Shown one piece after another: positions 7,414-63,438 of a DNA stretch of 64,000 nt. The position numbers and the translations under genes were made by a program. A model generated the notes under the pieces. It searched no databases. It was not told the origin of the DNA and saw nothing but the letters and a program-made list of their open reading frames with translations. Each line of letters begins with the position of its first letter. The first letter of the stretch is position 1. The DNA comes from Nitrospirota bacterium (GTDB taxonomy: Bacteria; Nitrospirota; Thermodesulfovibrionia; Thermodesulfovibrionales; UBA6898), in the NCBI GenBank assembly GCA_016214855.1, contig JACRMT010000004.1, positions 806,001 through 870,000 of the forward strand, in the 5' to 3' direction.

Positions 7414-7506
7414 AATATGTTGCACATTCCCGCTGAATCATTATACTTGATTCATACATATGTTACTGAACTGACAATGGCATATTAATTGCAGAGATAA
7501 TCACAT

Positions 7507-34089: not shown

Positions 34090-34120
34090 AGAGTTCCTGC
34101 AGTTACTCCTCTTCCAGCCC
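34083..34120. terminator. Hairpin across the convergent ends of usp and the activator gene
   Basis: GGGCTGAAGAG and CTCTTCCAGCCC pair with a single bulge around a 15-base loop. The stem uses the last codons of both convergent genes and may act as a shared transcription barrier. Confidence 0.4.
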
Positions 34121-35464
34121 GTATTTCTTAAGTTTTCTCCAGAGCGAGACCCTGTCAATGCCGAGGATCTGTGCAGCAATGGTCTTGTTGCCGCCCACCT
34201 CATGCAGCACCCACTTGATATAGGTCATCTCCTGGTCGTCAAGAGACGGATACTTGCCTTCTTTCTTTCTGAAGGTCCTGATGCTCAGTTCTTTAAGGTC
34301 CTCGGGAAGATGCGCGGTCTCAACCACACCGTCGTGGCTGAGTGCAATGCCCCGCTCAATGATGTTCTCGAGTTCTCTCACATTACCCGGGAAATCATAA
34401 TTCATAAGGAGAGCTATCACTTCCTGAGAGATTTCCGAAACAGCCTTTTTCTGCATCACGCTGTGCTTATTCAGGAAATAGTAGCTGAGCAGCGGTATAT
34501 CGTCCTTCCTCTCTGAAAGAGGCGGTATCCTGAATGAAACAACATTGAGTCTGAAATAGAGGTCTTGCCGGAACTGACCCTCCTTGATCATCTCGTGAAG
34601 ATCACGGTTCGTGGCTGCCAGGAATCTTACATCGATCTTGATCGGTTCCGTGCTGCCGAGCCTGAGCACTTCCCGTTCCTGGATCACCCGCAGAAGCTTG
34701 ACCTGCATAGAGGGAGGCATCTCCGTGATCTCGTCAAGGAACAGGGTTCCGCCTTTCGCCATCTCTATAAGACCTTTTTTCAGGCTCATTGCGCCGGTAA
34801 ATGCCCCTTTCTCATGTCCGAAGAGCTCATTGGTCAACAGTTCCTCTGTAAAGGCCCCACAGTTGACGGCAATAAACGGGCCGTCAGCCCTCTGACTCAT
34901 AAAATGCATATACCTGGCTAACAGTTCCTTGCCGGTGCCGCTCTCGCCCGTAATGATCACGCTGCAATCGGTCGGCGCAATCTGACGGGCTGTGTCCAGC
35001 AGCCTCTGCATATTAGGATTCTGGGTGATGAACTTCACCTTGCCTGCAAACTTCTCGATCTGCTCCCTGAGCTGATGGTTCTCCTTCTTGAGCGCTACCT
35101 TCTCAAGGGCTTCTTTAACCACCTTGCGAACCTCGTCAAGCTTAAAGGGCTTGGTCACGTAGTCATAAGCCCCCTTCTTCATCACCTGGATAGCAGACTG
35201 AAGGCTCGCATATCCCGTGATCATGATCACTTCCGTATCAGGAGAAAGCTCCTTGCAGCGCTTGAGAATCTGGTTGCCGTCAACTTTTTCCATCTTAAGG
35301 TCTGTAAGCACAAGATCGAACTGCTGCTCCTCAAGAAGCTTAAGAGCATTCTGACCGCTCTGCGTGGAGGTGACCTCATACCCTTCTTTTTTCATAATAT
35401 GCTCCAGATTGCGCAGCGCGATCTGTTCATCATCAACGATCAATATCCTGTTTCTATTGCTCAC
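34103..35464 (-). CDS. Sigma-54-dependent response regulator (pair 1)
   Basis: GTG 35464, three bases past the kinase stop and preceded by AGGGAGA, gives 453 residues. The receiver domain has the phosphorylation site in V-L-T-D-L-K-M near 52 and K in V-T-K-P-F-K near 104. A sigma-54 AAA+ domain follows (about 140-380), with G-E-S-G-T-G-K-E and the sigma-54 contact loop G-A-F-T-G-A. The C-terminus is a Fis-type HTH (A-A-Q-I-L-G-I-D-R-V-S-L-W-R-K-L). It is paired with the upstream kinase and lies divergent from cassette B, its likely target. Confidence 0.95.
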   Translation of the reverse strand: MSNRNRILIVDDEQIALRNLEHIMKKEGYEVTSTQSGQNALKLLEEQQFDLVLTDLKMEKVDGNQILKRCKELSPDTEVIMITGYASLQSAIQVMKKGAYDYVTKPFKLDEVRKVVKEALEKVALKKENHQLREQIEKFAGKVKFITQNPNMQRLLDTARQIAPTDCSVIITGESGTGKELLARYMHFMSQRADGPFIAVNCGAFTEELLTNELFGHEKGAFTGAMSLKKGLIEMAKGGTLFLDEITEMPPSMQVKLLRVIQEREVLRLGSTEPIKIDVRFLAATNRDLHEMIKEGQFRQDLYFRLNVVSFRIPPLSERKDDIPLLSYYFLNKHSVMQKKAVSEISQEVIALLMNYDFPGNVRELENIIERGIALSHDGVVETAHLPEDLKELSIRTFRKKEGKYPSLDDQEMTYIKWVLHEVGGNKTIAAQILGIDRVSLWRKLKKYGLEEE

Positions 35465-35465
35465 G

Positions 35466-36890
35466 CTATATCTCCCTGAAAGGCAGTGTGATCGTAAAGG
35501 TAGTACCTTCACCATGGTCGCTCTCGACCTCTATCTTTCCCTCATGGTCCTCAATGATCTGACGCGTAATGAAGAGACCCAGCCCGGAACCCTTCCCATC
35601 TTCCTTCGTCGTATAAAAAGGATCGAATATGGTTGCAAGCTTGTCCTGGTCTATACCGGTACCCGTATCGCAGATCCCGATCCTCACGACCCCCTCATCC
35701 CTGAACTCCCGCGCCGAGATCGTCACTGAGCCCTCTTCCGCAATGGCATCGACAGCATTTTTGACAAGATTAAGGATCACCTGCTCAATGCGCTGTTTGT
35801 TGACAAAGACCCAGATACGCTCCGGAATGCTGGCAGTGACCGTGACCTTTGCGGGCAGTTCGCCATGTATCAACCTGATGGCCTCGTCCACGATGTATTT
35901 AAGGGCATAGGGCTTCCGCTCAAACTCGGTCTTTCTGGAAAAATCAAGGAGAGACTTTGACATGGTCCTGGCACGCTCGATCTCGTCGTGGATCTGCTGG
36001 AGAAGGAGCTTCTTATAGTCCAGGTCTCCTTCAGCGATCTCCTCCTGAAGGATCTGACAGGAGCTGTAGATATTGGAAAGAGGATTATTAAGCTCATGGG
36101 CAACTCCCGATATCATCGTCCCGAGCGAGACCAGCCTTTCAGACTGCATCATGAACTTCTTCTGCCGCAGTTCGATCTCATGGATCATTCTGCTGCAGGC
36201 GCTGCTCAGGGAAACGATCTCCGTATCAGGCGACTGGATCTGAAGTTTCTCGAACTTCCCCTCAGCAATGCGCTGCATGTTATCTTCCAGGTCCTTAAGA
36301 GGCCTCACCACCATTTTGGAAAAATACTGGCCTATGAGCACACCTGCCGCGATCACCAGGATCACGGATACTAAAATAACCTTCTTTGAGAAGGAGATCA
36401 TCTCAAGGATATAGCTGCGTTCAGCGATCGCTATGCCCTCGGTTGCCTCTACAATTTTCTTCCCCGTCTCCCTTATTGAATTTTCCAGCCCTTCTGTTGA
36501 GCCGTCACCCTGCAAAAACTTCTCCTTATGGTATCGGCTGAGCAGCCCCTTATATGTCCGGATATGTCCCTCGATGGCGCCGACATCCGTGGAAGGGGAA
36601 AGGTTCTTGATCGCATCACTGTTCGTATGAAACAGTCTCTCTACCTTCTCCGTGTAGTGAAAGTTCTCCTCATACTCACGTTGTTCCCGGTAAAGAAAAT
36701 AGTTCTTTTCAAAGCGCCGCATCTCAAGGGTCGCCTCAAAGATATCGGAGATAATGAAACTGAAGGTGAGTTTCTTGTCGATGGCACGAAGATTAAAGTA
36801 ATTCAGGAACGCAATGAAGATGATCATGGCGATACAAATATAATATCCATACCGCACCTTGTTCTGGATACTGGACCGCCCGCTGAACAT
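35466..36890 (-). CDS. Sensor histidine kinase (pair 1)
   Basis: ATG 36890 gives 474 residues: membrane helix (about 18-38), helical extracytoplasmic sensor (about 40-155) with M-R-R-F-E-K-N-Y-F-L-Y, second helix, HAMP linker, HisKA with [10 protein letters not shown] and an HATPase domain (N-box L-N-L-V-K-N-A, D-T-G-T-G-I and G-S-G-L-G-L). Promoter TACAAT at 36896-36901 with a TGC extension lies five bases from the ATG, so the mRNA is probably leaderless; longer starts (36911, 36962) are possible but would lie inside the promoter. It phosphorylates the neighbouring sigma-54 regulator. Confidence 0.93.
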   Translation of the reverse strand: MFSGRSSIQNKVRYGYYICIAMIIFIAFLNYFNLRAIDKKLTFSFIISDIFEATLEMRRFEKNYFLYREQREYEENFHYTEKVERLFHTNSDAIKNLSPSTDVGAIEGHIRTYKGLLSRYHKEKFLQGDGSTEGLENSIRETGKKIVEATEGIAIAERSYILEMISFSKKVILVSVILVIAAGVLIGQYFSKMVVRPLKDLEDNMQRIAEGKFEKLQIQSPDTEIVSLSSACSRMIHEIELRQKKFMMQSERLVSLGTMISGVAHELNNPLSNIYSSCQILQEEIAEGDLDYKKLLLQQIHDEIERARTMSKSLLDFSRKTEFERKPYALKYIVDEAIRLIHGELPAKVTVTASIPERIWVFVNKQRIEQVILNLVKNAVDAIAEEGSVTISAREFRDEGVVRIGICDTGTGIDQDKLATIFDPFYTTKEDGKGSGLGLFITRQIIEDHEGKIEVESDHGEGTTFTITLPFREI

Positions 36891-45865: not shown

Positions 45866-47872
45866 TTATTGAGCATTTCCGAGCACGAGTTCGACTGCCT
45901 CGCTTATCCTGTCTATGTAGCTGACCTTAAGGCCCTTGAGTATTTCAGGAGGAAGGTTCTCGATATCGACCCTGTTTTTGAGAGGCAGGATAACATGCTT
46001 CACCCCTGCCCTGTGCGCTGCAAGAAGCTTTTCCCTGATCCCTCCCACAGGAAGCACTCTGCCGCTCAGGGTGATCTCGCCGCTCAGCGCAACATCCCTC
46101 CGCGCCGGTCTGCCGGTGAGCAGAGAAAGCAGCGCAAGCACTATGGTGCTGCCTGCAGAAGGCCCATCCTTCGGGATCGCGCCTGCCGGCACATGGATAT
46201 GGATATCATGGTTCTCGAAAAAATGTTCCTCTATGCCGAACTGCGCTGCATTGCTCCTGATATAGCTCAACGCCGCCCGGGCCGACTCCTTCATGATATC
46301 GCCGAGGGACCCGGTCAGGATCAGCTCCTGTTTCCCGGCCATCTTCGCTGCCTCGACAAAAATGATCTCGCCGCCGATATCTGTCCAGACAAGCCCCGTA
46401 GTAACGCCGATCCGATCCTGTTCGTCTGCCACCTCAAAGTAGAACTTCCTCGGCCCCAGAAGTTTTTCGACCATCACCGGGGTGACGGTCATAGCCTCAA
46501 CATGATCAGCATGCTGAACAAAATCCTTTGCGATCTTCCTGCAGACAGAGGCGATCTCCCTGCTCAGCCCCCGGATTCCCGCTTCATGGGTATACTCCTG
46601 CACAATCTTGTATAGTGCCGCTTCGTTAAACAGCGGAGGACTGTCCCTAAGGCCGTTCTCCCTGATCTGTCTCGGCACAAGGAAGTTCGCCGCAATATTG
46701 ACCTTCTCTTCTTCCGTATACCCCGAAAAGTGGATCACCTCCATACGGTCCCTGAGAGGCCCCGGGATATTCTCTGCCACATTCGCGGTGATGATGAACA
46801 TCACTCCCGAAAGATCGAACGGCATATCCAGGTAATGGTCAAGATAGCCGGCATTCTGTTCAGGATCCAGGACCTCCAGAAGGGCTGAAGCCGGATCTCC
46901 CTTGAAGTCATGGCCGATCTTATCGAGCTCGTCGAGAATGATGACAGGATTGCAGACACCCACCCGCCTGATCTCGTCTATAATCCTGCCGGGCATGGCG
47001 CCTGCATACGTCCGTCTGTGTCCCCGTATCTCAGCCTCATCTTTTATGCCGCCAAGGGATATCTTCGCAAATTTTCTGCCGACAGCGCGGGCAATAGACC
47101 TGCCCAGAGATGTCTTGCCGGTTCCGGGCGGCCCTGAAAAACAGAGCACTGATCCCCGCGTATCCTGCCGTACAGCCCTCTTTTCGAGGGCCTGGTTCAC
47201 AACATGTCTGACGTCATCCAGTTTGAAGGGCTTTGCAATATAATGAAAAGCTCCTTTTTTCATCGCCTCGACTGCAGTATGGATCGTTGCGTACCCGGTG
47301 ATCATGATCACCTGTGTACTCGGGGACCTGGTCTTGATCTTTCCGAGCACCTCAAGACCGTCCATCTTCTCCATCTTGAAATCGGTCAGCACAACATCGA
47401 ACTCCGTATTTTCAATCGCAGCAAGGGCCTCATAACCGTCCTTTGCCGTCTGGACCGTGTAATTCTCCTTGAGCAGGACATGAGACATGTTCCTGCGGAC
47501 GATCTCCTCATCATCAACAACGAGTATCTGCGGCCTCCTGCTCATCTTCAGTTTTTTCACTGCGAGATGTTCAAGGATGCGCTCCTTGATCTGGGTAAGT
47601 CCGTAGTGCTCTTCATTAAGTATCCGCTCTGCCAGTTCAAGGTCAAGGATATCCTCGGTCCTCGTCTTCCAGGGCATGGACAGGAGGTATTCGATGTATG
47701 TCAGGCCTATGGTATATTCTGAGGTCGAGGGGCCTATTCTGAAGAGCAGTTCGAGTTCCCTGTCGATGACCTCTTTTACATGGTTCCCCAGGTCGGTATT
47801 TGTAACTTTTTCCCTCAGTTTGTCGAGAACAGGGTCCTGCTGCGGTTCATCATTTCTTCCGAACAGTTTCAT
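45866..47872 (-). CDS. Lon-like ATP-dependent protease with an inserted receiver domain
   Basis: The 668 residues lack the usual Lon N-terminal substrate domain. Order: helical segment with the Lon motif Y-I-E-Y-L-L-S-M-P-W (near 60) and L-N-E-E-H-Y-G-L (near 88); a receiver domain (about 115-230), phosphorylation site V-L-T-D-F-K-M; Lon AAA+ (about 240-430) with G-P-P-G-T-G-K-T and I-I-L-D-E-L-D-K; and the Ser-Lys protease domain with K-D-G-P-S-A-G (near 575) and the catalytic Lys in G-V-K-H-V. It is divergent from kinase 2. TACAAT six bases before the ATG suggests a leaderless message. Confidence 0.93.
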   Translation of the reverse strand: MKLFGRNDEPQQDPVLDKLREKVTNTDLGNHVKEVIDRELELLFRIGPSTSEYTIGLTYIEYLLSMPWKTRTEDILDLELAERILNEEHYGLTQIKERILEHLAVKKLKMSRRPQILVVDDEEIVRRNMSHVLLKENYTVQTAKDGYEALAAIENTEFDVVLTDFKMEKMDGLEVLGKIKTRSPSTQVIMITGYATIHTAVEAMKKGAFHYIAKPFKLDDVRHVVNQALEKRAVRQDTRGSVLCFSGPPGTGKTSLGRSIARAVGRKFAKISLGGIKDEAEIRGHRRTYAGAMPGRIIDEIRRVGVCNPVIILDELDKIGHDFKGDPASALLEVLDPEQNAGYLDHYLDMPFDLSGVMFIITANVAENIPGPLRDRMEVIHFSGYTEEEKVNIAANFLVPRQIRENGLRDSPPLFNEAALYKIVQEYTHEAGIRGLSREIASVCRKIAKDFVQHADHVEAMTVTPVMVEKLLGPRKFYFEVADEQDRIGVTTGLVWTDIGGEIIFVEAAKMAGKQELILTGSLGDIMKESARAALSYIRSNAAQFGIEEHFFENHDIHIHVPAGAIPKDGPSAGSTIVLALLSLLTGRPARRDVALSGEITLSGRVLPVGGIREKLLAAHRAGVKHVILPLKNRVDIENLPPEILKGLKVSYIDRISEAVELVLGNAQ

Positions 47873-47962
47873 GGATTTATTGTATAAGATTGCAGCTGCT
47901 TTATAAACAGAATATTTGGCAGGTTTTATTTTGCTTCAGTTCCGGTGCTAATATAAGGCCAT

Positions 47963-49516
47963 ATGTCGCTCAAGAAGAAAATAGTGCTCAGCTTCCTTGT
48001 CAGCGCAGGCATTATAGCAATGCTTTCTGCCTTCCTGTATCTGAACTTTATAGAGATAAAAAAGGAAACGATCTTCCTCGAGCTGACCGATACCATACGG
48101 TCCAAATCCCTGCAGCTCAGGCGTCATGAAAAGAACTACTTTCTCTATGCGCCTGAGCATGCCGCAGACGAATCCAAAGCGATCTACGGGTATCTGACCG
48201 AGCTGGACGACCTGCTCAACAGTGCAAAGACACCGGCAATGAACCGGGCGGCTTCACTGAGGGGCCTTTTTCAGGAATACCGGGACCAGTTCAGCAGGAT
48301 CGAGTCGCTCGTGGCAGGTGTAGATTCCGAATCCAACAAACTGAAGAGTTCATTGCCCGCATATCGCCGCGTGAGCGACCTCATAGAGGCAAACTTTCTG
48401 GACAAACCCCTGGAAGACATCGCCTATCTCCGGGATACGCTCGCACTGCAGCCGGACCATTCGATAGTCGTAATACTTGGTGAACTTGATGCCGGGATCA
48501 CTACACTCCGGAAGACAGGAGAAAATATTCTTGTTGCCTCAAAGGAACTTGATAAAGAGGCGCGCGAAAAAGTTGACCGTTTTATTCATCTCTCGCGAAT
48601 CGCCATACTGGTATTCTTTCCCCTTTTCCTCATAGCCGGCTTCGGCACGACTCTGTTCATTATCAGTAATGTTGTCAAGAGATTGCATCTGCTCACCGCT
48701 CTTATTGAAAAAACAGGATCAGGGAATTACTTCCATCTTGAGGAACCACCGTCCTCATGGAGCGGGGACGAAGTGGGCCAGCTCATCAGGACATTCAACG
48801 ACATGGAGGACCAGCTCAGCCAGAGGGAAAAGGAGCTGCTGCAGTCCAAGAAGCTGGCTGCCATCGGCACCCTCGCATCAGGTGTTGCCCATGAGCTGAA
48901 CAACCCGCTTAATAATATTTATACCACCGCACAGAGGCTTATGAAGAAGGCTGGTGACGACAGTCCCGAGTATATAACAAAAGGGCTCAACGACATCTTC
49001 GGCCAGACCATGCGCGTAAAGAGCATTGTCGGCGACCTGCTCGAATTCGCACGCGGAAGAGAACCCCATCTTATGGCAGTAGAATTACGCGGACTTATTC
49101 TTGAAGCGTACAAACACCTCGAAAATACCCGGGATATGCAGGGTATCCGACTCTCCCTTGAGCTGACGCCTGAGGAGATAGTCCTGTACGCAGATACGAA
49201 ACAGCTCGAACAGGTATTCATCAATATTTTTTCGAACGCCCTGGATGCCATGTCCGGCCGGGGAGAGCTTTTGATAAAGGCAAAGGAAGATGAGAGCAGG
49301 ATCGCCATGCGGATCACTGATACCGGCAGCGGCATCCCAAAAGACGCGCTCGACAAGATATTTGAGCCCTTCTTCACCACAAAGGACAAAGGAACAGGTC
49401 TCGGCCTTGCTATCGTATTCAACATCATCCAGAAACATCACGGAGAATTGACCGTTGAGAGCGAAGAAGGAAAAGGCACCACATTTATTATCTCATTGCC
49501 GAAAAATCACCGGTAA
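47963..49516 (+). CDS. Sensor histidine kinase (pair 2)
   Basis: The 517 residues run: membrane helix (about 9-29), helical sensor domain (about 32-205) with [13 protein letters not shown], second helix (about 212-235), HAMP, HisKA with [12 protein letters not shown] near 305, and HATPase ([20 protein letters not shown]). It is strongly similar to kinase 3 at 58194, including the N-terminus. TGCTAATAT ends seven bases before the ATG and no ribosome site is present, so it is probably leaderless. Partner of the activator downstream. Confidence 0.95.
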
Positions 49517-49532
49517 AGGAAGACTATATTCC

Positions 49533-50864
49533 ATGGCATTCAGGATACTCATAGCAGAAGACGAAGAGATCACGCTGAACAACATTCTCGATACCCTGAA
49601 GGATGAGGGTTACGATGTTACAGCCACAAAGGACGGCAGCACAGCCCTCCAAAAACTCCAGCAGGAGCATTTCGACGTTCTTATCACCGACATCAAGATG
49701 CCCGGCATGACCGGCATCGAGCTCCTTGAACACGTTAAAGAGCAGTACGCCGCAACGGAAGTGATCCTTATCACAGGATTTGGCAGCATCGGCTCTGCAG
49801 TGGAGGCGATGCAGAAGGGAGCATATGACTACATCACAAAGCCTTTTGATCTTGACGAGCTTGTGCTGCGGGTCAGGAAGATCCTGGAGCAGAAGGCACT
49901 AAAGAAAGAGAATCTCGCGCTCAGGACCTATTTCGGCATGGATAAGAAGGTCTCGATCATAGCCAAGAGCGACAGCATGAAGCGCATCCTCGAAACCATT
50001 GAAGGGATAAAGGATTCAGACATCAACATGCTCCTTACGGGCGAGACAGGCGTGGGCAAGAGCCTGATCGCGAAGATCATCCATTTCACCAGCAGGAGAC
50101 AGCAGCGACCTTTTCTGGCCATCAACTGCGCAACCCTCACTGAAGACCTCCTTGCAAGCGAACTGTTCGGCCATGAAAAAGGCGCATTCACCGGGGCCAT
50201 ATCTACAAAGCAGGGGCTTGTCGAAATCGCCGATTCCGGCACCCTATTCCTTGACGAAATAGCAGAGCTCTCTCCAAACCTTCAGGCAAAGCTCCTGAAG
50301 GTTGTAGAGGAAGGCGAGTTTTACCGCGTAGGTGGCACGAAACCGCAGAAGGTTGATGTCCGTTTCATCGCTGCGACAAATCAGAATGTAAAAAGCCTGA
50401 TGGCAGAGGGAAAGTTCAGGGAGGATCTGTACTACCGGATCAATGTGATGGATATATTCATTGCTCCCCTGCGTGAACGGCAGGACGACATCCGTCCGCT
50501 TAGCAAATACTTTCTCCAGAAGCATCTTCCCAAGGCAGGCAAGAAATTGTCCGGCATATCTGATGAGGCAATGGAGATCCTCCTGCATTACAGCTTTCCG
50601 GGCAATGTACGTGAGCTCGAAAATATCATCGAGCGCGCCATCATTCTTGAAAAAAGCCCTGCCATCACGCCCGAGAGTTTGCCACATGGCATACGGGTGC
50701 TTCAGATCGAGACCTTTGACCCTGACAAGATAAAGACTATCGATGAGATCTCCAGGGATTACGCTGAGAAGGTCACGAAGATGTTAGGCGGCAACCGGTC
50801 AAAAGCGTGTGAACTGTTAGGCATATCAAGAACGAGTTTGTGGAAGATACTAAAGGAAGAGTAA
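49533..50864 (+). CDS. Sigma-54-dependent response regulator (pair 2)
   Basis: ATG 49533 follows AAAGGAAG and yields 443 residues. The receiver has V-L-I-T-D-I-K-M (Asp near 52) and I-T-K-P-F-D. The AAA+ domain has G-E-T-G-V-G-K-S and G-A-F-T-G-A. The Fis-type HTH ends A-C-E-L-L-G-I-S-R-T-S-L-W-K-I-L. It is similar throughout to the regulator at 59747. Likely targets are sigma-54 promoters such as the one upstream of cassette C, 2.6 kb downstream. Confidence 0.95.
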   Translation: MAFRILIAEDEEITLNNILDTLKDEGYDVTATKDGSTALQKLQQEHFDVLITDIKMPGMTGIELLEHVKEQYAATEVILITGFGSIGSAVEAMQKGAYDYITKPFDLDELVLRVRKILEQKALKKENLALRTYFGMDKKVSIIAKSDSMKRILETIEGIKDSDINMLLTGETGVGKSLIAKIIHFTSRRQQRPFLAINCATLTEDLLASELFGHEKGAFTGAISTKQGLVEIADSGTLFLDEIAELSPNLQAKLLKVVEEGEFYRVGGTKPQKVDVRFIAATNQNVKSLMAEGKFREDLYYRINVMDIFIAPLRERQDDIRPLSKYFLQKHLPKAGKKLSGISDEAMEILLHYSFPGNVRELENIIERAIILEKSPAITPESLPHGIRVLQIETFDPDKIKTIDEISRDYAEKVTKMLGGNRSKACELLGISRTSLWKILKEE

Positions 50865-51002: not shown

Positions 51003-51272
51003 ATGGTTTTTTATGAAGAAACCGTTAAGAAGGCCGTTTCCAAGGGTTCTTTACCCAAAGATATTTTTCATAAATTCAGCAATGTTTTCATTGCATTGGA
51101 TACAACTCACGACTTGAGCCTCTTTGACATCAGGAGGTTAAAGTCATCTGAAACGAGAACCTACTATCGCGTCAGGAAAGGGAAATACAGGGCCATATTC
51201 TATATTGAAGATAACAGCTATTTTGTTATCACCATCGCCAAAAGAGAGGAGGTATACGATAAATGGGAGTGA
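51003..51272 (+). CDS. RelE/ParE-like toxin
   Basis: These 89 residues have a helical N-terminus and the RelE-type core R-R-L-K-S-S-E-T-R-T-Y-Y-R-V-R-K-G-K-Y-R, then A-I-F-Y-I-E-D and I-T-I-A-K-R-E-E-V-Y. This family includes ribosome-dependent mRNases (RelE) and gyrase poisons (ParE). The gene overlaps the ribbon-helix-helix antitoxin by ten bases, with the toxin first (reverse order, as in higBA). Confidence 0.8.
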   Translation: MVFYEETVKKAVSKGSLPKDIFHKFSNVFIALDTTHDLSLFDIRRLKSSETRTYYRVRKGKYRAIFYIEDNSYFVITIAKREEVYDKWE

Positions 51273-51478
51273 TCTCGATAAGATTGAATAAAGACGAGGA
51301 AAAGATCCTGAAAAAATTGTCCGACCATTTTCATGAAGACAAGTCAGCGCTGGTAAAGAAATCACTGCTTGAATTGTATGAACATACTTTAGATTTGAAT
51401 GAGATTAAGAAGTTCGAAACCAGGGAGCATAAGGGAAAGACTGCTTTTTACACAGCTGAGGATATTTTAAAATCATAG
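51263..51478 (+). CDS. Ribbon-helix-helix antitoxin
   Basis: These 71 residues start I-S-I-R-L-N-K-D-E-E-K-I-L-K-K-L, the RHH beta strand and helix, followed by D-K-S-A-L-V-K-K-S-L-L-E-L-Y-E. The C-terminal part likely neutralises the RelE-like toxin. Its AGGAGG site lies inside the toxin gene. RHH antitoxins usually also repress their own operon. Confidence 0.82.
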   Translation: MGVISIRLNKDEEKILKKLSDHFHEDKSALVKKSLLELYEHTLDLNEIKKFETREHKGKTAFYTAEDILKS

Positions 51479-51552
51479 AAAGGCAGACCTGCCCGGCTTA
51501 TCAAGAACAAGTCTTTGGAAGATCAGCCGAAACGTTAGAGCGCGAATAATAA

Positions 51553-52020
51553 ATGAAAAAGAAAATAGAAAATATCATTAAAATCGATTATTGGCCATCA
51601 GCACATGCAAAAAAAGCTTATGCCGATGGTTATTACATTGAAGCTATTCAGGTTGAACATGCCTGCATTGAGCGTCAACTTCGTGAACTGTTATTTCTCA
51701 CAAGGACAAAGCCTGGCCCACATGACAACTTTGATTTAGCCTATGACTCAATGCTGGAAATTCCATTCAATACGTCTGTAAAGGTACTCTTTATTCAAAA
51801 AACAATATCACAGAGAGTCCGTGACAGATTATTAGCATTCAACAAGACAAGAAATAATATTATTCACAAAATATTTTTCGATTCAGCAAGCGGCGACTGG
51901 CATGGTTACCCAAAGACTCAATATGATCGGGCCTTCAAGGACGGTTTGAATTTGATGAATCTATTGGAAGACAAAGTTCACAATTACGATTTAAATAAGG
52001 CTGAAAAGGATAACAAATGA
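51553..52020 (+). CDS. HEPN-like protein
   Basis: This 155-residue, AT-rich, mostly helical protein has E-A-I-Q-V-E-H-A-C-I-E-R-Q-L near 32 and an R-N-N-I-I-H motif near 103, which fits the R-x4-6-H signature of HEPN domains (RNases or toxins). It is coupled to the next gene (ATGA). The pair follows a toxin-antitoxin operon and may be a toxin or defence module. Assignment is by motif only. Confidence 0.6.
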   Translation: MKKKIENIIKIDYWPSAHAKKAYADGYYIEAIQVEHACIERQLRELLFLTRTKPGPHDNFDLAYDSMLEIPFNTSVKVLFIQKTISQRVRDRLLAFNKTRNNIIHKIFFDSASGDWHGYPKTQYDRAFKDGLNLMNLLEDKVHNYDLNKAEKDNK

Positions 52021-52508
52021 TGACATCAAGACAATGTGAAATTGCAGCAGAGTCTTATGCTGCGTGTCTGCTCGCCCAAGCAGGTTATGATGTTTTGGTT
52101 CAATATGGCGCGAATCAGCCGCATTATGATCTTGTGGCAAACAAAGACAGGAGATTTTTGCCAATATCGGTAAAAGGCAGTCAAGATGGCGGTTGGATGC
52201 TGGCAGTGCGTTACAAGAAAGAGGACTCAAGCTATCACGATGCTATCGATAGCTGGCTTGCTTCGCAGCGCGATGACGTCATTTTTCTCTTTGTTCAGTT
52301 TATTCACGTCTCTATCGGTGACGCCCCAAGGGTCTACATTGCAAGACCCGCCGAAATAGCAGACCATATGAAAGGCCAGTGTCACGGCCGGGGGCATGGC
52401 GCTTTACAGGAAGACTATCAGCGCGATCATCCCAATTCAAAGTATGATCATAAGGTGCCTCAAGCATGGCTGTTTTCTCAGAAACGAATAGATGAAATAA
52501 AGCTCTAA
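52017..52508 (+). CDS. Restriction-endonuclease-like (PD-(D/E)XK type) protein
   Basis: The 163 residues (ATG 52017; ATG 52020 also possible) begin with a helix (C-E-I-A-A-E-S-Y-A-A-C-L-L-A-Q-A-G-Y), then V-L-V-Q-Y-G-A, H-Y-D-L-V-A and F-L-P-I-S-V-K-G-S. The D...x-V-K arrangement resembles PD-(D/E)XK nucleases, but the acidic residue before V-K is Ser. It may be inactive or use another acid. It is translationally coupled to the HEPN-like gene and ends shortly before a palindromic non-coding stretch. Confidence 0.55.
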   Translation: MMTSRQCEIAAESYAACLLAQAGYDVLVQYGANQPHYDLVANKDRRFLPISVKGSQDGGWMLAVRYKKEDSSYHDAIDSWLASQRDDVIFLFVQFIHVSIGDAPRVYIARPAEIADHMKGQCHGRGHGALQEDYQRDHPNSKYDHKVPQAWLFSQKRIDEIKL

Positions 52509-52778
52509 TCGGGTAGCCGGGGGTAGTTAACCCCCAGCCCCCACAACACCCCGCATGCGGGTCTCCTCCAGAGGACAGGCGCAGTGGGCGGTTCGCAGAA
52601 ATCATCGGGCCTTGGCCGGATAGTGAATCCTGCTCCACAATGTTCGTATGGAAGTAAGCCCCTGCTTTTTTAAAAATAGACGATGGGGTCAGCCCGTTGA
52701 CATAGGACAAAATAACGGCTAATTCTAACCAGATGTTCGAGCCGCCAAGCGGCTCATCTGACGCATTGGACAGATAGA
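52509..52778. other. Non-coding stretch with palindromes, possible mobile-element remnant
   Basis: No protein is supported. GGGGGTAGTTAACCCCC (52519-52535 region) and CCCGCATGCGGG are palindromes. A candidate promoter TTGACA (52697-52702) with TAATTC (52720-52725) follows, and then a hairpin CAGATG-GAGCCG / CGGCTC-ATCTG at 52730-52760. The phrase GGGGTCAGCCCGTTGACAT near 52685 looks like sequence often found beside REP-type transposases, but no transposase is left. Confidence 0.4.
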
Positions 52779-52790
52779 TTGATCGAACCT

Positions 52791-53177
52791 ATGGATCCTG
52801 AAACACTCACATTCCTGCTAAGACGCGGGCATATTGATATGCCCGAAAGAATTGAGCGCGGGTTATGGCCGCATCCGCCGCTTAAGTATTCTGATGTTGT
52901 CCGTCACCTTGCCCACGTCCTTCAATCCGAAAAATGGTTTCCACGTGAATGGAAGCCTGCTGTTCCCGGTGAGTCAGTATGGGAAGGCGGCGTAATCGAG
53001 CGCAAGGCCAGATGGCTCTATATCTATCGGACACAGAGGCATCATCCTCTGGATCCAACCGTTTTCGTCGAAAAGGCCACCTTGATATTTTTCTCGCCCA
53101 AGGCAGCCGCAAGATATTACCTGAAATGGGACTTGAATCTTCCGGGGTATCTGGATGGCTGGAAGGTTGAAAGATAG
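52791..53177 (+). CDS. Hypothetical protein of the accessory region
   Basis: ATG 52791 gives 128 residues; TTG 52779 would add four. It is a soluble protein with many aromatic residues: W-F-P-R-E-W-K-P near 50, W-L-Y-I-Y-R-T near 74 and A-A-R-Y-Y-L-K-W-D-L-N near 105. There are no membrane helices and no recognised motif. It has no clear ribosome site. It lies alone between the HEPN pair and cassette C, and could be an immunity or adaptor protein, but nothing proves that. Confidence 0.5.
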   Translation: MDPETLTFLLRRGHIDMPERIERGLWPHPPLKYSDVVRHLAHVLQSEKWFPREWKPAVPGESVWEGGVIERKARWLYIYRTQRHHPLDPTVFVEKATLIFFSPKAAARYYLKWDLNLPGYLDGWKVER

Positions 53178-53482
53178 TATTTTTTTAAAAAAACGTCGGC
53201 TCGTTTCACTTGGCTCAATGCTGCTGTTAAGACTGTTCATAATCTAAACACCACCTTTTATTCTTCCAAAAGCCATCTCACTCTCGTCAATTTATCCCAA
53301 TTTTTCAAGACGTTAAATGTTCTGTTCCGTATATGGACAGCATTTAAAACTGCATGAATCTGCTGTTCATATTCTAAACACAACAATACCTCATATCGTT
53401 TTTTATATGTAAATTCAAAGAGTTATAGTCTGGCATTCAACATGCTCTATAGGTAATAGATTTTGGAGCAAGGAGGATGGAA
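53178..53482 (+). promoter_or_regulatory. Upstream activating region of cassette C with three TGT-N11-ACA dyads
   Basis: This 305-base AT-rich gap has no gene. Three 17-base dyads of form TGT-N11-ACA occur: TGTTCATAATCTAAACA (53234-53250), TGTTCCGTATATGGACA (53323-53339) and TGTTCATATTCTAAACA (53364-53380). They lie about 200, 110 and 70 bases upstream of the sigma-54-like promoter, typical for activator sites. The first and third extend to near-identical 22-base direct repeats. Confidence 0.65.
53431..53446 (+). promoter_or_regulatory. Sigma-54 (-24/-12) promoter of cassette C
   Basis: TGGCAT-TCAAC-ATGCT keeps the invariant GG (53432-53433) and GC (53444-53445) exactly ten bases apart, close to the consensus TGGCAC-N5-TTGCA. 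Transcription would begin near 53457. The start codon is 52 bases after the first T. Confidence 0.65.
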
Positions 53483-53956
53483 ATGAAGCGGAATCTATTA
53501 TTTGTGACTTACAAAGACGGAGAGATTGACGAAGGTCTCAACTACGCCCTTGATCTGGCAAAGATGACGGACAAAGGCATGGCAGTCCTTTTGGTGAATA
53601 AGAAAAAGCTCTCCGGAAAGCTTGAGCAGATCATGTCAGCAGTGGCCTTTGCTGAGGAGAACGAGCCTGAAACAGCAAGACAGATCATGAATTCCTCGGA
53701 AGCCGGGACGAACCTCACGAGCGCTATTGAGGAAAAATGCAGGACCTCGGGCGTGGCGACCGCAATTCATACAGCCATTCAGGATGCGGCAACCTCCGTA
53801 AAGGACTACCTGAAACAGAACAGCAGCATCGACATGGTTCTGCTCAGCCCTGACATCACAGAAGACGGGAACATCTCTTCGCGCGAGCTCAGCAGACTTG
53901 TACGCACATCATCAAGGCCGATCGTGACCATGGCCAAACAGCCGCAAACAGCATAA
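53483..53956 (+). CDS. Usp-like protein with internal FAE module (cassette C)
   Basis: ATG 53483 is preferred over ATG 53477 because GGAGG touches the first but is six bases from the second. The 157 residues form a Usp-like fold (N-L-L-F-V-T-Y-K-D-G, then I-D-M-V-L-L-S-P and R-P-I-V-T-M-A-K) without the ATP loop. The FAE module is inserted at about 43-69 (L-E-Q-I-M-S-A-V-A-F-A-E-E-N-E). The protein at 62953 has the module at the same residues. First gene of cassette C, 37 bases after the predicted sigma-54 promoter -12 element. Confidence 0.85.
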   Translation: MKRNLLFVTYKDGEIDEGLNYALDLAKMTDKGMAVLLVNKKKLSGKLEQIMSAVAFAEENEPETARQIMNSSEAGTNLTSAIEEKCRTSGVATAIHTAIQDAATSVKDYLKQNSSIDMVLLSPDITEDGNISSRELSRLVRTSSRPIVTMAKQPQTA

Positions 53957-54147: not shown

Positions 54148-55068
54148 ATGTATTTGTATTTACCGGTAGCACTGACCAGTATCAACATCTTCATCCCTGT
54201 AGGGCTCGGTCTGGCGGTCGGCCTGCTCTCAGGCCTGTTCGGCGTCGGAGGCGGCTTTCTTATGACCCCCCTTCTGATCATGTTCGGCATACCCTCAACC
54301 GTAGCAGCTGCAACTGACTCGAACCAGATCGTTGCAGCTTCCACCTCAGGCACCTATGCCCACTGGAAGGTCGGCAATGTGGACTTCAAGATGGGTTTTC
54401 ATCTCCTGATCGGCGGGTTCATCGGCGGGCTCGTCGGCGTTCAGGGCATCAAGGTGCTTAATGCCATGGGCAATGCCGATTTTGTGATCAAGATGACCTA
54501 TGTGCTGATGTTGGGCATAGTCGGCACGTACATGTTCATCGAGAGTCTGAGCAGCATAAGAAAAAAGAACGTGCAGGAAGTGAAGTCAGAGGAAAAGGAG
54601 TCAGCATTCTCAAAGCTCCTCAAGACCCTGCCGCTTCAGACAGAGTATGTAAAATCAGGCGTCACCCATTCGATGCTTCTTCCTATCATCTTCGGTGGGT
54701 TTGTAGGGATTCTTGCAGCGATCATGGGCGTGGGCGGCGGATTCCTTATGGTCCCGGTCATGGTCTATATCCTCAGGATGCCGATGCATGTTGTGGTCGG
54801 CACGAGCCTCTTTCAGATCCTCTTCAACTGCATCGAGGTGACCTTTCTTCAGGCCTACACCAACCATAACGTGGACTTTATCCTCGCGGTGCTGCTTCTG
54901 CTTGGCTCCACCATCGGCGCGCAGGTGGGCGCAGTATTTGGAAGAAAGCTCAAGGGGGAACAGCTCAAGATCATTCTTGCGGTCATCGTTCTTCTGGTTA
55001 CCGTAAAGATCGTCTTCGATCTCACGCTCAGCCCCTCAATACTCTTATCACAGGCAGGAGGACACTAA
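54148..55068 (+). CDS. TauE/SafE family permease (cassette C)
   Basis: The 306 residues start at ATG 54148 after an AAGGA/GGAGG site. About eight membrane helices lie in two halves with L-F-G-V-G-G-G-F-L-M-T-P-L-L (near 30) and I-M-G-V-G-G-G-F-L-M-V-P-V (near 195). A central cytoplasmic loop (about 135-165) is rich in Lys and Glu. It exports small anions, probably sulfite-like. The next gene starts one base after its stop. Confidence 0.94.
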   Translation: MYLYLPVALTSINIFIPVGLGLAVGLLSGLFGVGGGFLMTPLLIMFGIPSTVAAATDSNQIVAASTSGTYAHWKVGNVDFKMGFHLLIGGFIGGLVGVQGIKVLNAMGNADFVIKMTYVLMLGIVGTYMFIESLSSIRKKNVQEVKSEEKESAFSKLLKTLPLQTEYVKSGVTHSMLLPIIFGGFVGILAAIMGVGGGFLMVPVMVYILRMPMHVVVGTSLFQILFNCIEVTFLQAYTNHNVDFILAVLLLLGSTIGAQVGAVFGRKLKGEQLKIILAVIVLLVTVKIVFDLTLSPSILLSQAGGH

Positions 55069-55069
55069 T

Positions 55070-55876
55070 ATGAAAACAGTGAACAGTAATCAGTTATCAG
55101 TGATCAGCTTAAAAATAATAAAACCGATACTCATCGTTATCAGCCTGATCGTAACGATCGGGACGGCATCGGCAGAATTGACGGCAAAGGCGAACCATGA
55201 CCATATCAAGGTCGATTTCTTTTATCACGGAAGCACGGTCAGCGTAAGCGGCATTGCAGATAAAGGAACAGACCTGATCATCAAGATCGCCTCACCAGAA
55301 GGTCATGAGGCACTCAAGCAGAAAGGCAAGGTCGGCGGTCTGCTCTGGATGAATGTGGGCGCCCTGAATTTCGAGGACGTGCCGAACCTCTATTCTATCC
55401 ACAGCACCCGGAAGGTCGAAGACCTGATCGACCAGAATGAACAGGATCGATTCGTCATAGGCTATCCTGCACTTGGCAGACATGTACAGCTGAGCCCGGC
55501 AGCAGACGAACAGGAGAAGGCAAAATGGTTCGGAGAGTTTTTGAAGTACAAGGAATCATCCAGACTCTATACGACATCAGCCGGCAGGATCGACCTGAAA
55601 GAAAAGGACGGCAAACAGTCGTATTACATCAATACTGAATGGCCGTATCAGGCACCTCCCGGAGACTACCTGGTTACCGTATATGCAGTCAAAGACGGAA
55701 AGATCGTCGATACTGCGGTCTCAAAAGTGCTGGTCGAGCAGGTCGGCATTGTAAAGACACTCGCCGGCATGGCAAAGAACAATGCCTCGATCTACGGGAT
55801 CATATCGATACTCTCTGCCCTGGGAGCAGGCTTTGGAGTCGGACTGGTATTCAGAAAAGGCGGAGGTGCTCATTAA
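55070..55876 (+). CDS. TIGR02186 family exported/membrane protein (cassette C accessory)
   Basis: The 268 residues have a signal peptide unusually long at its N-end: residues 5-13 (N-S-N-Q-L-S-V-I-S) are encoded by a dispersed DNA repeat. The extracytoplasmic beta-rich domain (about 35-235) has H-I-K-V-D-F-F-Y-H-G and G-L-L-W-M-N-V, and ends with a C-terminal helix (about 240-262). This matches TIGR02186 (Alph_Pro_TM), typically found beside TauE/SafE permeases. It is probably a periplasmic partner. ATG 55070 is one base after the permease stop. Confidence 0.85.
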   Translation: MKTVNSNQLSVISLKIIKPILIVISLIVTIGTASAELTAKANHDHIKVDFFYHGSTVSVSGIADKGTDLIIKIASPEGHEALKQKGKVGGLLWMNVGALNFEDVPNLYSIHSTRKVEDLIDQNEQDRFVIGYPALGRHVQLSPAADEQEKAKWFGEFLKYKESSRLYTTSAGRIDLKEKDGKQSYYINTEWPYQAPPGDYLVTVYAVKDGKIVDTAVSKVLVEQVGIVKTLAGMAKNNASIYGIISILSALGAGFGVGLVFRKGGGAH

Positions 55877-56743: not shown

Positions 56744-57163
56744 ATGAAAGGATACAGAAAGGTCCTGATAGCAGTGAACGGATCAAAAGAGGTGCTTGCC
56801 AGGGGGATCAGCCTTGCCTGCGACGAACAGTGCTGGATAACCGTGGTCAAGGTCCTGCCTGCAAACGAAGGCGATCTGAACCTGACCGGCGTGAAGAATA
56901 TCGAGGACCTGCTCGACAATGGGTCCCGCCTCGAAACCGCCGAGATCAGAAGGGTTGCCGAAAGAGAAGGATTACTGGTAAAGACAAGGATCGAGGAAGG
57001 CAATGTCTCGCAAAGGATCCTTGAAGTGGCAGCAGAAGAGCGGTGCGATGTCATCGTCATGGGTGCAAAAAAGAGGAACTGGCTAAGAAGGATCTTCGGC
57101 GACAACACTGTCGGGAAAGTGATACATCAGTCACCCTGTCCTGTCTTTGTGGTTTCTGCCTGA
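56744..57163 (+). CDS. Universal stress protein, degenerate ATP loop (cassette C)
   Basis: These 139 residues form one UspA domain: V-L-I-A-V-N-G-S near 10, T-V-V-K-V-L-P near 35, D-V-I-V-M-G-A-K-K-R near 110. The G-x2-G-x9-G-S loop is lost (G-A-K-K-R-N-W-L-R-R-I-F-G-D), so it probably does not bind ATP. Short and basic at the C-terminus. Five bases after the tandem usp; a terminator follows. Confidence 0.92.
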   Translation: MKGYRKVLIAVNGSKEVLARGISLACDEQCWITVVKVLPANEGDLNLTGVKNIEDLLDNGSRLETAEIRRVAEREGLLVKTRIEEGNVSQRILEVAAEERCDVIVMGAKKRNWLRRIFGDNTVGKVIHQSPCPVFVVSA

Positions 57164-58193: not shown

Positions 58194-59750
58194 ATGTCCC
58201 TGCAGAAGAAGATCATACTCAGTTTTCTGATCAGCTCCGCTCTCATAGCCATTTTTGCGATCTTTGCCTATGTGAACTTCATCGAGATCAGAAAGGAGAT
58301 ACTGAACCTCGAACTGTCCGATACACTTCGCAGCAAAACGCTTCAGCTCAGGCGGCATGAAAAGAACTTCCTTCTGTACAGGGATGTCCGCGAGATCGAA
58401 AGTGTGCATGCGTATATCAAAGAGATCAAGGCCATCCTTGAGAAGAATAAACCCCGTGATACGAACGGGCAGATCCTTAACCTGCAGGCAAGCATCGAGG
58501 ATTACAGCCGGCGTTTCAGCAGAATCGAAACCCTTGCGTGGGAGTTCCTCGACAATATTGAAAAACTGAAGAAACGAAACACTCAATATGCACTGTTTTT
58601 CCCCCTTATGGAAGCAACGTTCCTCGAAAGTCCTGCGGTCAATGCAAGACAGATCGAGATACTCTTTAAGCCGGGCGCGGATTCGGCTATACTCAATAAT
58701 CTCAGGGATCTGGATACGGAGATCACAGCGCTGAGAAAGATCGGGGAGGAGATCCTGACACTTTCAAAGGGCCTTGATACGGTGACTCGGGAGAAGGTTG
58801 ACCGCACGATCAGGATCTCACAGACCGCGCTTCTTATTCTCTTTCCCCTCTTTCTTATCGTCGGATTTTCCGCTCTGCTGGTTATCGTACGCAGCACGGT
58901 CAGACAGATGAAGATGCTCACGAGCGCGATAGAAAAGACCGGTAAAGGAGATTTCTCTTCCCTGCCGGCCCCGGACAAGCATGATGAGGTCGGGGTCCTG
59001 ATCGATGCCTTCAATAAAATGGAGAATGACCTCATTGCCCGGGACCACGAGATCGAAAAGAAGAACGAGGAACTCCTCCAGAGCCGGAAGCTCGCTTCTC
59101 TCGGCACGCTGGCATCAGGCGTTGCCCATGAACTGAACAATCCGCTGAACAATATCTATCTTGCAGCGCAGATCCTTACCAAAGAGATCGATACCGAGAC
59201 CTGTCCCGGCATAATCAAAGAGACGGTCGGTGATATCTATTCTCAGACGCTGAGGGTGAAGAGGATCGTGAGCGATCTGCTTGCCTTTGCCCGGGAAAAA
59301 CCGCCTGAGCTTGCCCCTGTTCAGATAACCGTTCTGATAAAGGGCATCCTGACCCAGATGGCAGCGACCGATGACCTGGGAGACGTCCGGTACGCTATTC
59401 AGGCGCAGGAAGATGCCACGGTGCTGGCCGACAGCCACATGATGGAACAGGTCTTCATTAACCTGTTCAACAATGCGGTGGACGCCATGGAGGGCAAGGG
59501 TCTCCTGACCATAACTATTGACCGTGACGGCCCCATAATTAAGATCTCGGTCTCAGATACCGGCAAGGGTATACCCAAAGAAAAGCTCCAGAGGATCTTC
59601 GATCCATTTTTTACGACCAAGGACCACGGAACAGGCTTAGGCCTTGCCATTGTTTACAGTATACTAGAGAAGCACAAAGGCAGGATCGATCTGCAGCATA
59701 CCTCTGAAAAAGGTTCGACCTTTCTGATCACACTGCCTGGAGGAGTATGA
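58194..59750 (+). CDS. Sensor histidine kinase (pair 3)
   Basis: The 518 residues have the same layout as kinase 2: membrane helix (about 9-29), helical sensor domain with [13 protein letters not shown], second helix (about 213-235), HAMP, HisKA with [12 protein letters not shown] near 308, and HATPase with [14 protein letters not shown] and G-T-G-L-G-L. TGCTAATAT/TATAAT at 58177-58188 is five to eight bases from the ATG without a ribosome site: probably leaderless. The stop overlaps the regulator start (ATGA). Confidence 0.95.
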
Positions 59751-61075
59751 GCCAGAGAATATTAATAGCAGAAGATGAGACGATATCCCTGAAACACCTC
59801 ACCTATGCCCTCGAAAAGGAAGGCTACGAGGTCACCGGCACAAAGGACGGCCTGTCTGCCTTCGCTCTTTTCGAAAAGAACGCCTATGATGTGATCATAG
59901 CTGACATCAAGATGCCGGAGATGGACGGGCTCACCCTGCTCGAAAAGATCAAAGCCAGGGAGCCCGACGCAGAGGTGATCATCATCACCGGCTTCGGCAG
60001 CATTGAATCAGCGGTCATTGCCATGAAGAAAGGCGCATCGGAATATGTTACCAAGCCCTTTAATCTTGACGAGCTGAACATCAAGATAAAGAAGGTTCTG
60101 GAAAAAAAAAGGATAGAGAAAGAGAACACCGCTCTTAAGGTCTCCCTCGGCATAGACCAGGAATTTCCGTTCATCGCAAAGAGCCATACCATGCAGCGCG
60201 TCGTCGAAGTGATCAGAAGCATAACGAATTCAGACTGCAATGTGCTGCTTACCGGAGAAAGCGGCGTAGGGAAAGATCTGGTCGCAAAGATCATCCATCA
60301 TACCAGTGCCCGGAAAGACAAACCGTTCCTCGGCCTGAACTGTGCCATCTTCACCGAAGAGCTTCTTGCCAGTGAACTTTTCGGCCATGAAAAAGGGGCC
60401 TTCACCGGCGCTGTAGCTTCGAAGAAAGGACTGATCGAGGTTGCGGATACCGGAACGCTTTTTCTTGACGAGATCGCAGAGATGACGCCCTCACTCCAGG
60501 CCAAGCTTCTGAAGGTGATCGAAGACAAGGAATTCATGCGTGTGGGCGGAACACGGCTGATCAAGGTTGATGTCCGGCTTATCGCTGCCACGAACCAGAA
60601 TCTTTCGACGCTCATCAAGGAAGGCAAATTCAGAGAGGATCTGTACTACCGGCTTAATGTCATGGATGTGTTCATCCCGCCTCTCAGGGAAAGAAAAGAA
60701 GATATCACGCCTCTTATCAAACACTTTCTGCTGAAGTATGCAAAAAAAGAGAACAAGAGGATAACCGCCTTCAGCAAAGAAGCTATGGATATTCTGATCT
60801 CCTACGGCTTTCCCGGGAATGTGAGGGAACTGGAGAATATCATCGAAAGAGCGGTGATCCTGGAGAAGTCCTCGACAATCCAACCGGAGAATCTTCCGCA
60901 GACTATCAAGCTTTTTGAGGTCGAGACCATTTCACCGAACAGGGTCAAAACGATCGACGAACTGAACAGGGATTATGCAGAAAGAATTCTCGATTTCGTG
61001 GACAACAACCGCTCAAAGGCAGCCGAACTCCTCGGTATTTCACGCACCAGCCTCTGGAGGATACTGAAGAAGTAG
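59747..61075 (+). CDS. Sigma-54-dependent response regulator (pair 3)
   Basis: The 442 residues: receiver with V-I-I-A-D-I-K-M (Asp near 50) and V-T-K-P-F-N; AAA+ domain with G-E-S-G-V-G-K-D and G-A-F-T-G-A near 215; C-terminal HTH A-A-E-L-L-G-I-S-R-T-S-L-W-R-I-L. It is co-translated with kinase 3 and similar to the regulator at 49533. The nearest sigma-54-like promoter is upstream of cassette D, about 1.8 kb downstream. Confidence 0.95.
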   Translation: MSQRILIAEDETISLKHLTYALEKEGYEVTGTKDGLSAFALFEKNAYDVIIADIKMPEMDGLTLLEKIKAREPDAEVIIITGFGSIESAVIAMKKGASEYVTKPFNLDELNIKIKKVLEKKRIEKENTALKVSLGIDQEFPFIAKSHTMQRVVEVIRSITNSDCNVLLTGESGVGKDLVAKIIHHTSARKDKPFLGLNCAIFTEELLASELFGHEKGAFTGAVASKKGLIEVADTGTLFLDEIAEMTPSLQAKLLKVIEDKEFMRVGGTRLIKVDVRLIAATNQNLSTLIKEGKFREDLYYRLNVMDVFIPPLRERKEDITPLIKHFLLKYAKKENKRITAFSKEAMDILISYGFPGNVRELENIIERAVILEKSSTIQPENLPQTIKLFEVETISPNRVKTIDELNRDYAERILDFVDNNRSKAAELLGISRTSLWRILKK

Positions 61076-62830: not shown

Positions 62831-62916
62831 AGTTTCAGTTTGAAACAGTTACTGATGCATACCCAATAGCATTATTCTTTATTTACATAAGGTTATACGC
62901 TGGCATGAAGTTTGGA
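62831..62916 (+). promoter_or_regulatory. Candidate sigma-54 promoter and activator site upstream of cassette D
   Basis: TGGCAT-GAAGT-TTGGA (62901-62916) has a good -24 element but GG in place of the -12 GC. It sits 52 bases before the start codon, exactly as in cassette C. Upstream, AGTTTCAGTTTGAAACA (62831-62847) reads TGT-N11-ACT on the other strand, close to the TGT-N11-ACA dyads of cassette C. Confidence 0.4.
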
Positions 62917-62952
62917 ATGTATATCGCGAATTTCCAAAAAGGAGAAACGCAG

Positions 62953-63438
62953 ATGAAAGATAAGATCTTATTCGTAACCAAAGGAGGTGAGCAATGCGAC
63001 GAAGGCTTTTCTTATGCCCTTGAACTGGCAAAAACCCTCAATGTCTCCATAGAGACGCTGATCATGCAACCTGCCGATCTGACAACGCAGTTTGAAGACA
63101 TTATGGCAGCTGCAGCATTTGCAGAGGCAGGCGACCTGAAGACCATGAAAGAGATCATGGAATGTGAGCAGAAGACATGCAGGGAAAAACTTAACAACAG
63201 AATTGCAGAATTGGCCCGGAAAGCAGAAGAAACAGAGATCACCATGCTCTGCCACACATCGGAAGGTGACGTAGCAGCAGCAATAAAGGCATTCCTGAAG
63301 GACAGGCCCAATATCGACATGGTCCTGATCAGCCCTTCACTCTCAGAAAATAAAAAGACCATTGATATAAAAAAGCTTTTAAAGAATATTTCAAAACCCA
63401 TTGTACATATCTCAAGACCGGCAACGGCAGAGATATAA
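62953..63438 (+). CDS. Usp-like protein with internal FAE module (cassette D)
   Basis: ATG 62953 follows AAGGAGAAA. The 161 residues mirror the protein at 53483: I-L-F-V-T-K-G-G at the start, the FAE module at about 43-69 (F-E-D-I-M-A-A-A-A-F-A-E-A-G-D), then V-L-I-S-P near 134 and K-P-I-V-H-I-S at the end. No ATP loop. It opens cassette D. Confidence 0.85.
   Translation: MKDKILFVTKGGEQCDEGFSYALELAKTLNVSIETLIMQPADLTTQFEDIMAAAAFAEAGDLKTMKEIMECEQKTCREKLNNRIAELARKAEETEITMLCHTSEGDVAAAIKAFLKDRPNIDMVLISPSLSENKKTIDIKKLLKNISKPIVHISRPATAEI

Follow-up and report, generated by a model that had tools for sequence, protein, structure and literature searches.

A candidate enhancer and sigma-54 promoter conserved upstream of a universal stress protein operon in the Nitrospirota

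The neighbouring operon DVU3302-3298 of Desulfovibrio vulgaris, which includes genes for UspA-domain proteins, is targeted by DVU3305, a DNA-binding response regulator that works with the kinase DVU3304 and the Lon-receiver protein DVU3303 (PMC3333781). Further reports on the DVU3303-DVU3304-DVU3305 three-component system (PMC4641369, PMC10102598) include the cofitness of the three regulatory genes and the importance in chlorate stress of DVU3299, a putative anion transporter (PMC10102598). Orthologues of DVU3305 were noted in a 2011 study in Thermodesulfovibrio yellowstonii and other organisms, most of which also have a conserved Lon partner and binding site (PMC3333781). At the level of promoter layout, the D. 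vulgaris orp1 and orp2 promoters share with the region described here a palindromic activator site, an IHF site at about -43, and then a -24/-12 promoter, but are served by another activator (DVU2106) and belong to other genes (PMC3897727). The sites of NmpR in Myxococcus xanthus offer a further likeness, in that an NtrC-type regulator binds paired 5-N5-5 dyads (GCGCA-N5-TGCGC), though the half-site and regulon are different and the dyads are closer together (14 bp at mxan_4236; PMC11841059).

The window, a 64 kb stretch of DNA from a Nitrospirota genome, resembles DVU3303-3305 in encoding a Lon-receiver fusion, a kinase, and a sigma-54 activator together (45866-50864). These are a Lon protease into which a receiver domain is inserted (45866-47872, minus strand; Lon_C, AAA, Response_reg), the divergently oriented membrane histidine kinase HK1 (47963-49516, plus strand; HisKA, HATPase_c, HAMP), and its cognate sigma-54 response regulator RR1 (49533-50864, plus strand; Response_reg, Sigma54_activat, HTH_8). 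As in D. vulgaris, the proposed target operon combines Usp domains with a putative anion transporter, and all five of its genes lie on the plus strand: a divergent universal-stress-like protein (USPL, 53483-53956), a TauE/SafE (TSUP) permease (54148-55068; PF01925), an Alph_Pro_TM/TIGR02186 membrane protein (55070-55876; PF09608), a tandem universal stress protein with two stretches matching PF00582 (55863-56738), and a further universal stress protein (56744-57163; PF00582). USPL itself has no match in Pfam or NCBIfam, and is called Usp-like because its paralogue at 62953 has a weak Pfam match to Usp. The TSUP permease is mostly 80-93% identical across relatives, far above the other genes of the operon.

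There are also differences from the Desulfovibrio system. RR1 carries GAFTGA where DVU3305 has GAFSGA; DVU3305 regulates its own operon, while no dyad was seen before that of RR1, the HK1/Lon intergenic region being without a TGT-N11-ACA dyad; and among relatives of the window the Lon fusion was found in a few only, adjoining HK1 in some and not as a general feature. Judged by gene content and the published descriptions, the window system is most likely a member of the DVU3303-3305 type, and probably represents in the Nitrospirota a stress system familiar from Desulfovibrio, the Thermodesulfovibrio counterpart of which has already been reported (PMC3333781). The sequence-only reading did not mention the Desulfovibrio system.

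The promoter proposed for the operon, TGGCATTCAACATGCT (53431-53446, plus strand), was identified by direct reading and by conservation in relatives. The sequence-only reading had described it as TGGCAT-N5-ATGCT with canonical GG/GC spacing, and the bases bear this out, with GG at -24, GC at -12, and ten bases between them, as in sigma-54 promoters. Sites of this quality are scarce, with three in the 64 kb window scoring at least 6/7. The transcription start that had been predicted near 53457 agrees in position with the promoter, and the likely start codon of the first gene is the ATG at 53483, with AGGAGG at 53471-53476. The genome has one rpoN gene (431.5 bits, over the cut-off). Elsewhere in the window, a near-perfect sigma-54 site, TGGCATATTAATTGCA (7478-7493), lies directly 5' of an ORF at 7507 for a CheR methyltransferase; with a leader of only ~3 bases after it, the CheR start codon may lie further in.

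Three candidate activator dyads, all on the plus strand, precede the promoter: a distal dyad TGTTCATAATCTAAACA (53234-53250), a middle, weaker dyad TGTTCCGTATATGGACA (53323-53339), and a proximal dyad TGTTCATATTCTAAACA (53364-53380). Their distances from the -24 box, given earlier as about 200, 110, and 70 bases, measure 197, 108, and 67 bp, placing the distal dyad 130 bp from the proximal. The outer two lie inside 22-base repeats (53233-53254 and 53363-53384) that were rightly called near-identical, matching at 20 of 22 positions. The motif that had been claimed, TGT-N11-ACA, does occur, but the form that is conserved is instead yGTTCA-N5-TrAACr. While TGT-N11-ACA has 12 occurrences in the 64 kb window, the three at the promoter are the only ones of the TGTTC type, and the Poisson probability of three within 150 bp is ~4e-6. 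Being inverted repeats upstream of the promoter, in more than one copy and conserved, the dyads are by sequence candidate sites for an NtrC-type enhancer. The middle dyad, which has two mismatches, is the weakest of the three; it is recognisable in most congeners and was not seen outside the genus in the upstream regions of the relatives compared, which suggests an auxiliary site specific to the genus. Among single dyads followed elsewhere in the genome, a back-to-back pair at C11:51797-51826 was set aside; it lies where a small gene with an HTH-like N-terminus begins, and resembles an ordinary operator. At L137:3298-3327, two GTTCA-N5-TGAAC dyads that stand back to back have the same position relative to a gene of this kind and are probably an operator as well.

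Two sites with the IHF consensus had been overlooked by the sequence-only reading. Both are copies on the plus strand of the element WWTCAA-N4-TTR, one, TTTCAAGACGTTA (53303-53315), between the distal and proximal dyads and the other, ATTCAAAGAGTTA (53413-53425), 18 bp before the -24 box. The latter 13-mer deviates from the consensus WATCARNNNNTTR, which has been applied to the Desulfovibrio orp promoters (PMC3897727), at one base (the second), and in several relatives the match is exact. The element near the promoter is present in 43 of 55 promoters of the operon type at 53483 (cassette 1), nearly always 17-18 bp from the TGG, a spacing seen in most promoters of both cassettes (see below for cassette 2), and the inter-dyad element recurs in most relatives. 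The genome encodes an IHF-alpha that scores over the curated cut-off, together with a protein resembling IHF-beta. By consensus, both elements resemble IHF sites and are treated here as putative. The window differs from orp1/orp2 in having the extra IHF-like site between two activator dyads. In Escherichia coli, the sigma-54 promoter of pspA, an envelope-stress operon, has two activator sites and, adjoining the -24 box, a site for IHF. This layout resembles that of the window promoter, while the pspA operon differs in gene content and its activator, PspF, is not a response regulator, unlike RR1.

Conservation was assessed among named relatives, comprising Thermodesulfovibrionia and other Nitrospirota metagenome-assembled genomes (MAGs). 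Of 61 genomes from the same order, 42 contain a match to USPL; 66 loci were drawn from the named genome collection, and 61 orthologous loci, mostly Nitrospirota (Thermodesulfovibrionia), were compared. Most of these loci share the gene order HK1-RR1-USPL-TauE-TIGR02186-USPx2-USP. A -24/-12 site stands in front of USPL in 58 of the 61, at -42 to -64 from the start codon, and at every one of these 58 sites the -12 base, which played no part in the selection, is C (the one further site listed, in L115, is false). In the three exceptions, L100, L121, and L115, the USP gene of the operon has moved ahead of USPL, and there the dyads, IHF-like element, and sigma-54 site precede the USP gene, with the relocated site in L115 reading TGGCGC-N5-TTGCT. 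Both the dyads and a proper sigma-54 site are missing from USPL homologues outside the cluster (L087, L097, L098, and L119). Among the 52 non-redundant promoters, 46 reached sigma-54 scores of at least 9/10, against a mean of 0.25 and a maximum of 2 in shuffles. At least one dyad was present in 45 of the 52 and at least two in 38, compared to 0.245 and 0.005 in shuffles; the dyad pattern was derived from the same sequences as were tested, so that the shuffle controls overstate significance somewhat, and the effect is nevertheless very large. Phylogenetic footprinting thus backs the earlier reading of a sigma-54 promoter with activator dyads.

Spacing is conserved along with sequence. The distance from the start of the proximal dyad to the -24 box is 65-70 bp in 45 of the 52 non-redundant promoters; in the distant loci L112, L122, and L124, no proximal dyad scored at the usual spacing. 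The distal dyad lies ~85, 95, 105, 117, or 129 bp above the proximal in most relatives (with outliers such as 155 and 177), and a helical phasing test on the distance classes 85, 94.5, 105.5, 116.5, and 128 gave p ~0.02 with five classes, so that steps of about one helical turn are suggestive only. A combined dyad, spacer, and sigma-54 pattern returned 16 matches across 61 whole genomes (reversed control, 0), and, with all 16 located before this operon, this strict pattern points to a single-target local regulon. RR1, USPL, and a sigma-54 site (TTGCT) are also present in L122 and L124, from MAGs labelled Actinomycetes and Thermoleophilia, which may reflect horizontal transfer or misbinning.

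Three sigma-54 activators had been reported within 20 kb, and these are found at 49533 (RR1), at 59747 (RR2), and at 34106-35515 on the minus strand. The proposal that the regulator at 49533 acts here draws support from its conserved adjacency to the promoter: in 35 of 44 loci, 129-331 bp separate the 3' end of RR1 from USPL downstream. It has the receiver, sigma-54 AAA+ domain with GAFTGA, and Fis-type HTH of an NtrC-type activator. RR1 and USPL are 0.8 to 4.9 kb apart in the window and several relatives, owing to insertions, and the dyads remain with the promoter. The insert in the window (51003-53177, plus strand), absent in most relatives and overlooked by the first reading, holds unrelated small genes, among them a toxin-antitoxin-like pair (51003-51477) in which a gene for 89 aa with no family match is followed by DUF6290. 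At 51486-51523 the insert also contains a degraded 38-base copy of the RR1 3' end, 30 of 38 bases being identical to 50811-50848.

The best reading of the region is as enhancer plus sigma-54 promoter for a stress operon of five genes, activated by RR1 with bending by IHF, for which we put the probability at roughly 0.88. This model builds on what was observed directly, namely the sequence elements with their conservation and spacing, the linkage of the genes, and the rpoN and IHF genes of the genome. HK1 may sense an envelope or periplasmic signal and phosphorylate RR1, an oligomer of which would occupy the distal and proximal dyads. IHF, bending the DNA at two sites, one between the dyads and one in the stretch from the proximal dyad to the promoter, would let RR1 touch an RNA polymerase-sigma-54 complex presumed to wait at 53431-53446, and ATP hydrolysis by RR1 would then open the promoter, with transcription from ~53457. 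The physiological role is probably in anion or envelope stress.

Three rival readings were weighed. The WATCAA-N4-TTR repeats might be the sites of a second regulator or an extended sigma-54 element instead of IHF sites, as the rigid placement 17-18 bp from the -24 box, tighter than IHF needs, and the frequent T in place of A at the second base would allow; we regard this as doubtful, given that the element fits the consensus used for the orp promoters, where the IHF sites are at -42 and -43 (PMC3897727) compared to ~-44 to -32 here, and that IHF subunits are encoded in the genome. Activation of the promoter, taken as sigma-54 dependent, by RR2, or by RR1 and RR2 together, with the sister systems cross-regulating each other, appears distinctly unlikely. 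RR2 is encoded within the same 14 kb, TGTT-N9-AACA-type dyads are common to both operons, and the C-terminal HTHs are near-identical (SRTSLWKILKEE and SRTSLWRILKK), and with recognition helices so alike cross-binding is possible; against this, the dyads differ systematically, GTTCA-N5-TrAAC in cassette 1 and GTTyCA-N3-TGAAAC in cassette 2, and it is RR1, not RR2, that adjoins cassette 1 in relatives. As the region is AT-rich and intergenic, a promoter-like site and repeats could also have arisen from chance or background composition, but position, spacing, and sequence are conserved across ~60 loci, with shuffle and reversed-pattern controls near zero, and this conservation refutes a chance origin, leaving it a negligible probability.

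The second system, cassette 2, lies ~10 kb downstream, with HK2-RR2 at 58194-61075 and its target gene at 62953. The promoter of this sister operon (62832-62953) has the non-canonical -12 element TGGCATGAAGTTTGGA; the listed ORF start, 62905, overlaps the promoter, and the true start is probably 62953. The dyad, GTTyCA-N3-TGAAAC, is located 67-70 bp before TGGCAC, and the architecture is otherwise as in cassette 1. Most of the cassette-2 promoters upstream of USPL2 genes (L156-L183) have a further GTTyCA half-site, roughly a helical turn above the dyad. The -12 element, compared in ~37 loci, is nearly always TTGG, TTGA, or TTGT, once TTTC, and TTGC in none. The sister promoters therefore differ consistently at -12, where all cassette-1 sites and no cassette-2 sites have the GC described as a hallmark of sigma-54 promoters (PMC7910581, PMC2725144). 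In a genus-wide scan for TGGCAC-N5-TTGN, counts were too close to background to judge how frequent TTGG promoters are elsewhere. We give even odds to the suggestion that a putative sigma-54 class, TGGCAC-N5-TTG(G/A)W, drives cassette 2 across the Thermodesulfovibrionia and that the -12 base gives the sister operons different basal or activated states. This conserved odd -12 element is the part that would surprise specialists.

As a candidate, the region offers a mapped, testable enhancer-promoter unit for a widespread, largely uncultured lineage, and ties that lineage to a stress system whose phenotypes are known in Desulfovibrio. Alike save for the -12 base and the dyad spacing, the paralogous promoters form a natural comparison, both of the role of -12 in sigma-54 transcription and of how sister activators may keep their targets apart.
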